This document shows, one piece after another, positions 20,325 to 23,787 of a DNA stretch of 64,000 nt (positions are counted from its first letter, which is position 1; each line of letters opens with the position of its first letter). The position numbers were made by a program, and so were the translations under genes. The notes below the pieces were generated by a model. It did no database searches. It saw nothing but the letters and a program-made list of their open reading frames with translations, and was not told the DNA's origin. Source of the stretch: Promethearchaeota archaeon (GTDB taxonomy: Archaea > Asgardarchaeota > Lokiarchaeia > Sigyniarchaeales > SOKP01); the NCBI GenBank assembly GCA_019058295.1, contig JAHPZI010000026.1:1-64000 (forward strand), read 5' to 3'.

Positions 20325-20720
20325 ATGTCTAAAGAGCCCAATATTGATGATTTAAAATCTAAAATAGGATTTGGAATAAAGATATGGTTAGAATTTGGTT
20401 CTATTGATAAAAAAAAGAATATTTTGGGTTCTGGATGGGCAAAACTTTTAGAAAATTTAGATAAAAACATGAGTGGATCATTGACTCAAGCTGCTGAAGA
20501 ATGTGGATATTCGTATAAATATGCTTGGAATATTTTAAAGCGCATTGAAAAACGTACTGGAATGTCAGTTGTTAATACTGGGAAAGGTGGACGAGGTGGT
20601 GGGGGTTATGTCGAATTAAATGAATGGGGGAAATATCTTTTAAAAACTTATAATAATTTACTATTTGAACTTGAAATAATAGAAAAAAGACTTGGAGAAA
20701 CTTTTAAAATTAATGAATAA
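20325..20720 (+). CDS. ModE-type winged-helix transcriptional regulator
   Basis: SLTQAAEECGYSYKYAWNILKRIEKRTGMSVVNTGKGGRGGGGYVELNEWGKYLL. Confidence 0.8.
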   Translation: MSKEPNIDDLKSKIGFGIKIWLEFGSIDKKKNILGSGWAKLLENLDKNMSGSLTQAAEECGYSYKYAWNILKRIEKRTGMSVVNTGKGGRGGGGYVELNEWGKYLLKTYNNLLFELEIIEKRLGETFKINE

Positions 20721-21016: not shown

Positions 21017-22501
21017 ATGGCTTTACCGCTTCCAGGAACACCAGTTATAATTGATATCGGTAGTGCTTATGTTAAATTAGGTTTTGCTGGTGAACCTACA
21101 CCTCGTTTTGTTTTTCCTTCTATTGTTGGTACTGAAAAATATAGAGCAGTAATGGTTGATGTTGGCGGTCAAAGGAATTATTACGTTGGAAATGATGCCA
21201 TGAAAATGAGGGGCGTCCTTAAAGTAAATTATCCTATACAGAGAGGCGCGATTATGGATTGGGAGGCGTACTACGAGATTTTAAACTATATTTTTTATAC
21301 TTTACTTAGAATAGAGAATCTTTCAAATTATCCCATAATATATGCTGAGCATCCTTTTGTACCAAGAGAAACTAAAGAATTTATAGCAAGAGTTTTGTTC
21401 GAAACGCATAAAGTTAATTCTTTAATAATGTTGCAATCCCCATTTTTATCAATGTTTTCCGTTGGGTTGACAACGGGATTGGTAATTGAGAGTGGGGACG
21501 GGCTAACTTGGATTGTTCCAATAGTTAATGGGATTATCCAACAACAAGCAATCCAAAAGTTAAATCTTGCTGGAATAGATGTAAATCACAATTTAAGAAC
21601 GTTAATGATGAGAGAAGGAATTAACATTGAATCTTCAGCAGCAGCAGAAATATTAAAAGAAATAAAAGAAAAAAACTGCTATTTTGTATTAGATCCTCAA
21701 TCTCCTCCACTTTCGCAAGGGTCCTTCGCGTATCCAATGCCTGATGGCTCGGTTAAACAAATTCCAAGTAATGTTTTGCATGAAGCTCCTGAGGTTATGT
21801 TTCAACCTGGTATGTTAGGTTATAATATAATGAATATCCCCCAGGCGATAATATATTGTTTACAAATGATGGATAAAGCCTATTGGAGTGACTTATTATC
21901 ACACATTGTACTTTCAGGCGGGAACCTCTCTTATAGCGGATTTGAAGAACGATTGAAACAGGAATTGATGACCCTTTTGCCTCAGTTGGGACCTATTCCT
22001 AAAGCTCAAGTTCAGCCAACTCCTATTGGCAGCCAAGAGCCTAAGCTTGAAGCAATTAAAGTAAAAGAAAAAACAATAGACACATGTCCTGAATGTGGTG
22101 AATTAGTAGACTTATCTGGTGGGGGGGAGTCCTGTCCTTCTTGTGGAGCGAGTATGAAATTGCCACAATTATCCATAGATATAGGAAAGTCAATTGATAA
22201 GAAATCGAGGAAATGTCCCCATTGTAATAAAAAAATTATGGATGCATCATCTGTCTTTTGTCCATTCTGTGGAAAAGGAATTGCTGATAACTTTTCTAGT
22301 GTGAAAGAGTTTACAGATATCTCAGATTCAGATGAGGTTATTAAATTTTTTGTTCCTGATAATCTTCAATATGCTATTTTTAATGGATCCGCAATACTTG
22401 GAAGCCTTCCAAGCTTTCAGAATCTATTCGTTACATACGACGAATTTCAAAGTAATACAAATGCCTTATACAGAGAGATTTCTGATGTTTTTAAAATATA
22501 G
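21017..22501 (+). CDS. Actin-family protein with two inserted zinc ribbons
   Basis: IIDIGSAYVKLGFAGEPTPRFVFPSIVG, GLVIESGDGLTWIVPIVNG, IVLSGGNLSYSGFEERLKQEL, FNGSAILGSLPSFQNLFVTYDEF; CPECG..CPSCG and CPHCN..CPFCG between the last two. Confidence 0.93.
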   Translation: MALPLPGTPVIIDIGSAYVKLGFAGEPTPRFVFPSIVGTEKYRAVMVDVGGQRNYYVGNDAMKMRGVLKVNYPIQRGAIMDWEAYYEILNYIFYTLLRIENLSNYPIIYAEHPFVPRETKEFIARVLFETHKVNSLIMLQSPFLSMFSVGLTTGLVIESGDGLTWIVPIVNGIIQQQAIQKLNLAGIDVNHNLRTLMMREGINIESSAAAEILKEIKEKNCYFVLDPQSPPLSQGSFAYPMPDGSVKQIPSNVLHEAPEVMFQPGMLGYNIMNIPQAIIYCLQMMDKAYWSDLLSHIVLSGGNLSYSGFEERLKQELMTLLPQLGPIPKAQVQPTPIGSQEPKLEAIKVKEKTIDTCPECGELVDLSGGGESCPSCGASMKLPQLSIDIGKSIDKKSRKCPHCNKKIMDASSVFCPFCGKGIADNFSSVKEFTDISDSDEVIKFFVPDNLQYAIFNGSAILGSLPSFQNLFVTYDEFQSNTNALYREISDVFKI

Positions 22502-22632: not shown

Positions 22633-23787
22633 TTGAAAATATCGAAAATTCGATTATTAACAATTTTTATGTTATTCCTTGTGATCTCTTTAAGTTTATC
22701 ACCATTCGCATTAGCAAAAACACGAAAAACGTATTTATCTGATTTTCTCTTAGATAATTTTATCGATGATGAAGGTTTTTCAAACTGCAATAGAGAGGAA
22801 TATCGTGAGGATAGTGATGAGGTATCATACGAAGCAACCGCTTATGCTTTAGAAATTCTTGGAGGTTATAATTTGTTAGAACAGAAAGATCTATTTGGAA
22901 AAGTCGAAAAGAGCTATAATTCTTCAGATCTTCAAGAAGATTTAGAAAAAACCCTTGATTCTATGTATGGTTCTGGTTTTGAAGATATTTATGATACATA
23001 TTATATTTTAAAATCATTAGAAGATATGGATGTTGAAATCGATGGAACTTTAGCTCTTCAAATTAAACTATATCTCGATGCCACTGCCCAGAGCAATGGA
23101 GGTTTTGCTGGTACAGATACTTCTACATCAGCTACTCTAATTTCAACCTATTTTGCTTTACAAATTTATGACTTACTAGATCAACCTCTTCCAGATCCAA
23201 GAGGTTTTATCTTGTCGTGTGGTAATCCTGATGATGGTGGATATGGAGGTGATCCTACATCTTCCTCAACTATCGCCAATACATATTACGCTATTTTAAT
23301 CATGGATTTTTTAGATGATTTTGGGGCTTTAATCTCAGAGAGTGCGACCATTGATTATCTTAATCAGTTTTATGTTGATGATGAGAATGATGAAGATAAT
23401 TACGGGGGATATTTACCTGATCTAATAAATGCTAAATATGCATTACTTAGTAGTACTTACTATTGTCTAAAAGCCATTTCTTTACTCGATAAAGATGAAA
23501 TAGAAGATGAAGATGCTACCTCAGAATGGCTTTTAGATCGACAGAATTTCCAAGACGGAGGTTTTGTTGATCAAAGTGAAGGATACGAACAAAAATTTTC
23601 TTCAGTAATTAGTACGTATTTTGCCCTAGAAGCGTTAGATTTACTAGGTAAGGAAGATCTATTAGAAGAAAAAGTTTTCATGTTAGAATGGGAATGGTAT
23701 GATTGGTTAATATTCTGTATTATATTGATAGCTCTTATCGCATTGGCTATAATAGGTATTTATATTAGACGAAAAAGAAGATTATAA
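22633..23787 (+). CDS. Secreted, membrane-anchored prenyltransferase/squalene-oxidase-repeat (alpha/alpha toroid) protein
   Basis: N-terminal signal-like segment; repeats SNGGFAGTDTSTSATLISTYFALQIYDLL, DDGGYGGDPTSSSTIANTYYAILIMDFL, FQDGGFVDQSEG..SSVISTYFALEALDLL; C-terminal TM + RRKRRL. Confidence 0.8.
   Translation: MKISKIRLLTIFMLFLVISLSLSPFALAKTRKTYLSDFLLDNFIDDEGFSNCNREEYREDSDEVSYEATAYALEILGGYNLLEQKDLFGKVEKSYNSSDLQEDLEKTLDSMYGSGFEDIYDTYYILKSLEDMDVEIDGTLALQIKLYLDATAQSNGGFAGTDTSTSATLISTYFALQIYDLLDQPLPDPRGFILSCGNPDDGGYGGDPTSSSTIANTYYAILIMDFLDDFGALISESATIDYLNQFYVDDENDEDNYGGYLPDLINAKYALLSSTYYCLKAISLLDKDEIEDEDATSEWLLDRQNFQDGGFVDQSEGYEQKFSSVISTYFALEALDLLGKEDLLEEKVFMLEWEWYDWLIFCIILIALIALAIIGIYIRRKRRL

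Follow-up and report, generated by a model that had tools for sequence, protein, structure and literature searches.

An actin-related protein with inserted predicted zinc ribbons in Lokiarchaeia and its possible role at the ends of lokiactin filaments

The gene, its insert and the predicted zinc ribbons

The analyzed window, a stretch of 64,000 nucleotides from a Promethearchaeota archaeon (contig JAHPZI010000026.1), contains a gene encoding an actin homolog, hereafter the zinc-ribbon actin-related protein (Zn-ARP). Its ORF begins with ATG and contains no internal stop codon. The gene is located between genes encoding an HTH protein and a candidate partner protein with an alpha/alpha-toroid fold. 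The features of the locus are listed in Table 1.

Table 1. Features of the Zn-ARP locus (positions in the window; residues named "actin" follow actin numbering)
Feature	Position	Strand	Basis
HTH protein, ModE/LysR type, upstream	20325..20720	+	Present in 55 loci; TIGR00637, E = 2e-15 (below cut-off)
Zn-ARP, 494 aa	21017..22501	+	ORF, Pfam, orthologues, AF2 model
D-loop region of the pointed face, as in lokiactin	21134..21175	+	Alignment, face comparison
Position of actin Q137: S141 here; T/S in 69/70	21437..21439	+	Alignment
Position of actin D154: E158 here; E in 67/70	21488..21490	+	Alignment
Position of actin H161: W165 here; W in 54/70, H in 3	21509..21511	+	Alignment
Pointed-face contact SSA (actin 202–204), kept	21632..21640	+	Alignment, face comparison
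Pointed-face contact PDG (actin 243–245), invariant in 70/70	21740..21748	+	Alignment
Barbed-face helix (actin 285–291): CDVDLRR replaced; conserved Y289, W290	21869..21889	+	Alignment
Insert at actin loop 322–325, aa 324–438 (~115 aa)	21986..22330	+	Alignment to lokiactins and Leishmania actin; low-confidence AF2 linkers
Predicted ribbon 1 (C357, C360, C373, C376)	22085..22144	+	All four Cys kept in 70/70 orthologues
Predicted ribbon 2 (C400, C403, C415, C418)	22214..22270	+	Kept in 58/58 of the window's own family f1, 7/12 of other families
Toroid partner candidate: signal peptide, alpha/alpha-toroid (PF00432), C-terminal membrane helix and basic tail	22633..23787	+	Pfam, AF2, Foldseek

The Pfam Actin model (PF00022) matched the Zn-ARP with E = 3e-71, and this match was split into two stretches with zinc-ribbon models in between. 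Residues 357–419 were matched by DUF7575 (E = 4e-7, exceeding the Pfam cut-off) and by the double zinc ribbon model DZR (PF12773; E = 5e-6, its 27.1 bits falling just short of the cut-off, 27.3). The top PDB sequence match was the Asgard-like "HC1 actin" (E = 3e-72), followed by eukaryotic actins, and Arp1 was also among the matches. The AF2 model had pLDDT values mostly above 90 in the actin core, about 75 in two small ribbon modules and below 50 in the linkers, and a Foldseek search with this model returned actins with a target TM of about 0.90. The profile match, the kept nucleotide loops and the actin fold of the model place the protein in the actin superfamily.

An earlier note on this DNA had described an actin fold with two CxxC..CxxC ribbons inserted into an APPERKYS-type linker. 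The fold and the inserted ribbons were recovered, but the insert had been placed one loop too late. Alignment located it in the loop 322–325 of actin, between a subdomain-3 helix and the strand that runs to the APPERKYS equivalent; the latter is VPDNLQYA (aa 446–453) in the Zn-ARP and lies C-terminal to the insert. The alignment with PDB actins stops at about residue 323 of actin and restarts just beyond. In actin, the loop 322–325 takes part in longitudinal contact at the barbed face. The insert was also somewhat longer than the ~100 aa given in the note (Table 1).

The insert contains four CxxC pairs, namely C357/C360, C373/C376, C400/C403 and C415/C418, which make two knuckles per ribbon with a conserved CxxC spacing of 15–16 residues, as is characteristic of zinc ribbons; in most members, the knuckles are of the CPxCG type. 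Conservation was counted in 70 aligned orthologues, of which 58 belong to the window's family (f1) and 12 to other families. The cysteines, on whose conservation the earlier note had made its reading depend, were kept throughout in ribbon 1 and throughout family f1 in ribbon 2 (Table 1). Ribbon 2 was absent in Sigynarchaeota and in Candidatus Lokiarchaeum ossiferum. The cysteine pattern suggests that the inserted modules are metal-binding zinc ribbons.

The cysteines could alternatively act as a switch that responds to metal (Zn or Fe, in rubredoxin-like knuckles) or to redox conditions; metal loss would free the barbed face, and filament growth would thus follow the metal or redox state. The knuckle type, the tethering of the ribbons near a contact surface and the strictly anaerobic life of the hosts agree with such a switch. 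However, no sensing partner was identified, the ribbons resemble ordinary structural zinc ribbons and several lineages do without ribbon 2, and we regard this function as improbable.

Distribution of the family and its gene neighborhood

Orthologues of the Zn-ARP were found in about 72 of the 82 genomes of the window's order, and G096, a genome without a full match in the search, has both ribbons on a fragment at a contig edge. Among the named records are Ca. Lokiarchaeum ossiferum (CP104013.1), Ca. Harpocratesius, Prometheoarchaeum sp. and Sigynarchaeum. The insert recurs across some 70 genome assemblies, one of them the complete chromosome CP104013.1, and this recurrence rules out an assembly or gene-fusion artefact such as the one-off chimera envisaged in the earlier note.

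Among the 232 genomes of the phylum that were searched, the insert architecture was not found outside the window's order, and its carriers all belonged to families f1–f4. More distant genomes matched aa 5–325 with frames of 350–430 aa, which are plain actins. Profile searching at higher sensitivity in 20 selected genomes likewise gave no protein with the insert, and the insert was absent from five longer ARP-like loci of other Asgard archaea, which instead have C-terminal extensions or a Cys-containing stretch at the N-terminus. No match was found among plasmid records and none was confirmed in viral contigs. Two records carry other taxonomic labels and are probably mislabelled or misbinned: a Sigynarchaeota-type Zn-ARP, accompanied by its toroid gene, in a Bathyarchaeota-labelled MAG (L146, WJJB01000122.1) and a truncated actin-like gene resembling Zn-ARPs in a MAG labelled Firmicutes (L156, PHAD01000162.1). 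Other Asgard ARPs with long C-terminal extensions (483–671 aa) or an N-terminal Cys-containing extension were also observed (L191, L192, L193 and L194).

A phylogenetic tree was constructed from Zn-ARPs, lokiactins and other Asgard ARPs after removal of the insert columns. The Zn-ARPs formed one side of a 100/100 branch, apart from both lokiactins and other Asgard ARPs, and the grouping with lokiactins expected of a filament former was not observed. Under midpoint rooting, the one-ribbon Sigynarchaeota proteins split off first. The one-ribbon protein of L. ossiferum is nested among lineages that have two, which makes a loss of ribbon 2 probable there.

The L. ossiferum orthologue, UYP44711.1, differs from the Zn-ARP of the window in having one ribbon and not two. 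It is one of three ARPs of this cultured organism and appears as an unnamed ARP in the published tree (PMC9834061); both published RT-qPCR primers for UYP44711.1 match the locus in CP104013.1 (L067) exactly. Transcripts of all four actin homologues of L. ossiferum were measured, and that of lokiactin was several-fold higher (PMC9834061), which fits a minor regulator. The word zinc does not occur in the main text of that paper, and no description of the zinc-ribbon architecture was found in the searchable papers, most subscription papers being outside our reach. One paper examined closely deals with zinc ribbons of ESCRT and not of actin. The family is already known as sequence, and its architecture is apparently undescribed.

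In 65 of the 69 Zn-ARP loci, the toroid gene comes directly after the Zn-ARP gene and shares its strand, with a median gap of 149 nt, and this linkage holds down to about 38% ARP identity. Toroid orthologues were found in 71 of the 82 genomes of the order: 70 genomes contain both genes, two only the ARP, one only the toroid gene (at a contig edge) and nine neither (Fisher P = 2e-9). Genomes G134 and G095 also lack the neighboring folD, which is located further downstream in 58 loci, so the near-complete informative absences are reduced to G099 and G164. Joint absence being partly trivial, co-loss was set aside as strong proof of the linkage. A CBS-domain protein cluster is represented near the Zn-ARP gene in about 30 loci, mostly directly upstream (e.g., L093, 5419–5847), and is absent from the window.

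The toroid protein showed a Foldseek match to the beta subunit of Rab geranylgeranyltransferase (E = 4e-9), with which it shares the alpha/alpha-toroid; unlike this enzyme, it appears to be exported and membrane-anchored, with a cytoplasmic tail of only a few residues. A role as a protein prenyltransferase was rejected on account of the apparent export and because its invariant residues include no D, C or H and thus give no sign of a catalytic zinc site.

Nucleotide site and filament faces

In actin, residues Q137, D154 and H161 hold and activate the attacking water, and a triple alanine mutant has no measurable ATPase activity (PMC9646518). All three residues were retained in 20 of 20 lokiactins. 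In the Zn-ARPs, this hydrolytic triad of filament-forming actin and lokiactin is altered; Q137 was lost in all 70, to T, S or A. The earlier note had stated that all actin signature segments are present, which applies to the segments as such, but the hydrolytic residues inside them are altered (S141, E158 and W165). Residues D11, K18, G156, G158 and G302 were retained in 70/70 Zn-ARPs, and the retention of D11 and K18 fits nucleotide binding. These residues suggest that the Zn-ARP binds nucleotide without normal hydrolysis and that its ATPase activity has probably been lost.

Subdomains 2 and 4 (SD2, SD4) of actin look to the pointed end and SD1 and SD3 to the barbed end (PMC10072879). In order to compare the faces of Zn-ARPs and lokiactins, our own list of contact residues was used, drawn from general F-actin anatomy and not from a lokiactin structure. 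In the strict pointed-face set (actin 39–47, 62–64, 202–204 and 243–245), identity to lokiactin was 0.72 against a mean of 0.38, and none of 4000 random sets was as high (P < 0.001). The strict sets were chosen after the per-site table had been inspected, and weight is therefore put on the wide sets and on control ARPs. The wide pointed set gave a weaker signal (identity 0.53, P = 0.01), and SD2 and SD4 residues outside the contacts were average (0.34 and 0.39). Identity was low in the wide barbed-face set (0.25, lower tail P = 0.013) and in the lateral contacts (0.26, P = 0.05). The pointed-face excess was absent in the controls, for which four related Asgard ARPs were taken together and four actin-like paralogues singly. 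Thus, the Zn-ARPs do not show the conservation of both longitudinal faces that marks a filament former: the pointed face is kept, and the barbed face is diverged and interrupted. At the level of sequence, this face-specific conservation is the pattern expected of a barbed-end cap.

The complete actin fold (Foldseek TMt 0.90) and the well-conserved D-loop and PDG would suit a protein that polymerises alone or with lokiactin, its ribbons projecting along the filament as binding sites. However, the insert sits on a longitudinal contact, and the barbed and lateral contacts have both diverged, which makes polymerisation unlikely. The earlier note had favored a regulatory or scaffolding ARP over a plain filament former; the altered triad, the insert on a contact, the diverged barbed and lateral faces and the separate clade agree with this view. 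We lean towards a non-filament regulatory ARP that would act with lokiactin.

The non-polymerising ARPs of eukaryotes (Arp4, Arp5, Arp8 and Arp11) likewise combine the actin fold and insertions with altered catalysis, and they have regulatory or complex-subunit roles. We know of no zinc ribbons at the 322–325 site in these proteins. By analogy with nuclear Arp4/5/8 in chromatin remodellers, the Zn-ARP could be a permanent member of a soluble assembly of several proteins; its ribbons would then bind protein or nucleic acid, and lokiactin filaments would play no part. The loss of catalytic residues and the diverged barbed face are as in non-polymerising ARPs, ribbons are common interaction modules and an HTH protein is often encoded upstream. 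Such an assembly leaves unexplained the lokiactin-like pointed-face contacts, which other Asgard ARPs lose, and the constant neighbor is a membrane protein and no remodeller; we consider it less likely than not.

Possible role at filament ends

The cytoskeleton of Asgard archaea is based on lokiactin and includes profilins and gelsolins, and the Lokiarchaea are relatives of the ancestors of complex cells. Compared with plain lokiactin (e.g., UYP47028.1), the Zn-ARP has the same fold and similar pointed-face contacts, with about 38% identity over aa 9–324; the lokiactin has no insert, keeps Q137, D154, H161 and the barbed face, and belongs to a separate clade. The genome of the window encodes the Zn-ARP and one plain lokiactin, which are 38% identical.

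As the specific mechanism that we tentatively favor for such a regulatory ARP, the Zn-ARP may cap the barbed ends of lokiactin filaments and anchor them at the membrane. It would be an ARP specific to Lokiarchaeia that binds nucleotide, probably without hydrolysing it, and forms no F-actin-like filament of its own. With its pointed face (subdomains 2 and 4), it would dock on a lokiactin filament at the barbed end. The barbed face of the Zn-ARP itself, diverged and carrying flexible tethers with one or two ribbons, would then admit no more subunits. The ribbons may act as an adaptor, for which the short cytoplasmic tail of the membrane toroid protein is a possible target, and filament ends would thereby be capped and kept at the membrane. 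Two points speak against this proposal: the divergence of the lateral contacts would weaken docking at the barbed end, and the toroid's tail in the cytoplasm comprises only a few residues. The proposal in its most specific form, a dedicated actin-derived barbed-end cap that kept its pointed face, lost its ATPase and has its barbed face blocked by ribbons which fasten the filament end to a surface protein encoded alongside, is more speculative.

The proposed function would be shared with the barbed-end cappers CapZ and gelsolin, whose folds are unrelated to that of the Zn-ARP. Among eukaryotic ARPs, Arp11 caps the pointed end and not the barbed end, and to our knowledge no eukaryotic ARP caps the barbed end. 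The Zn-ARP family is order-wide, is transcribed in a cultured organism and has a precise, testable anatomy and a constant gene neighbor. If Zn-ARPs do cap or anchor filament ends, actin paralogues would have become regulators outside eukaryotes as well, by a route not known from eukaryotes.

Some irregularities were observed in other actin-like genes. The gene for the plain lokiactin in the genome of the window (L085, G000:C2, minus strand, ~5100–4970) seems to carry two inserts of ~30 nt near its 3' end, and omitting both from the reading gives the usual C-terminus, TFHR-MWVTRRE-YKEMGPQVIHRCF. With flanking exon pairing, the first insert folds far better than shuffled sequences (z = -4.2), an advantage that the second lacks (z = -0.1). 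These inserts are candidate bulge-helix-bulge mRNA introns. A break close to the C-terminus also occurs in the lokiactins of G108, G178 and G078, and a single in-frame stop in that of G109. In addition, an alpha-2-macroglobulin-like protein of 1650 aa (L195, G084:C2, 4483–9435, minus strand) contains, between its annotated bait-region domain and its A2M domain, an N-terminal piece of actin (aa 844–901) followed by GPSVVHRCF, which resembles the actin C-terminus. A neighboring actin-like ORF is without that N-terminal piece, and a decoy, a fusion or an assembly effect are candidate explanations.
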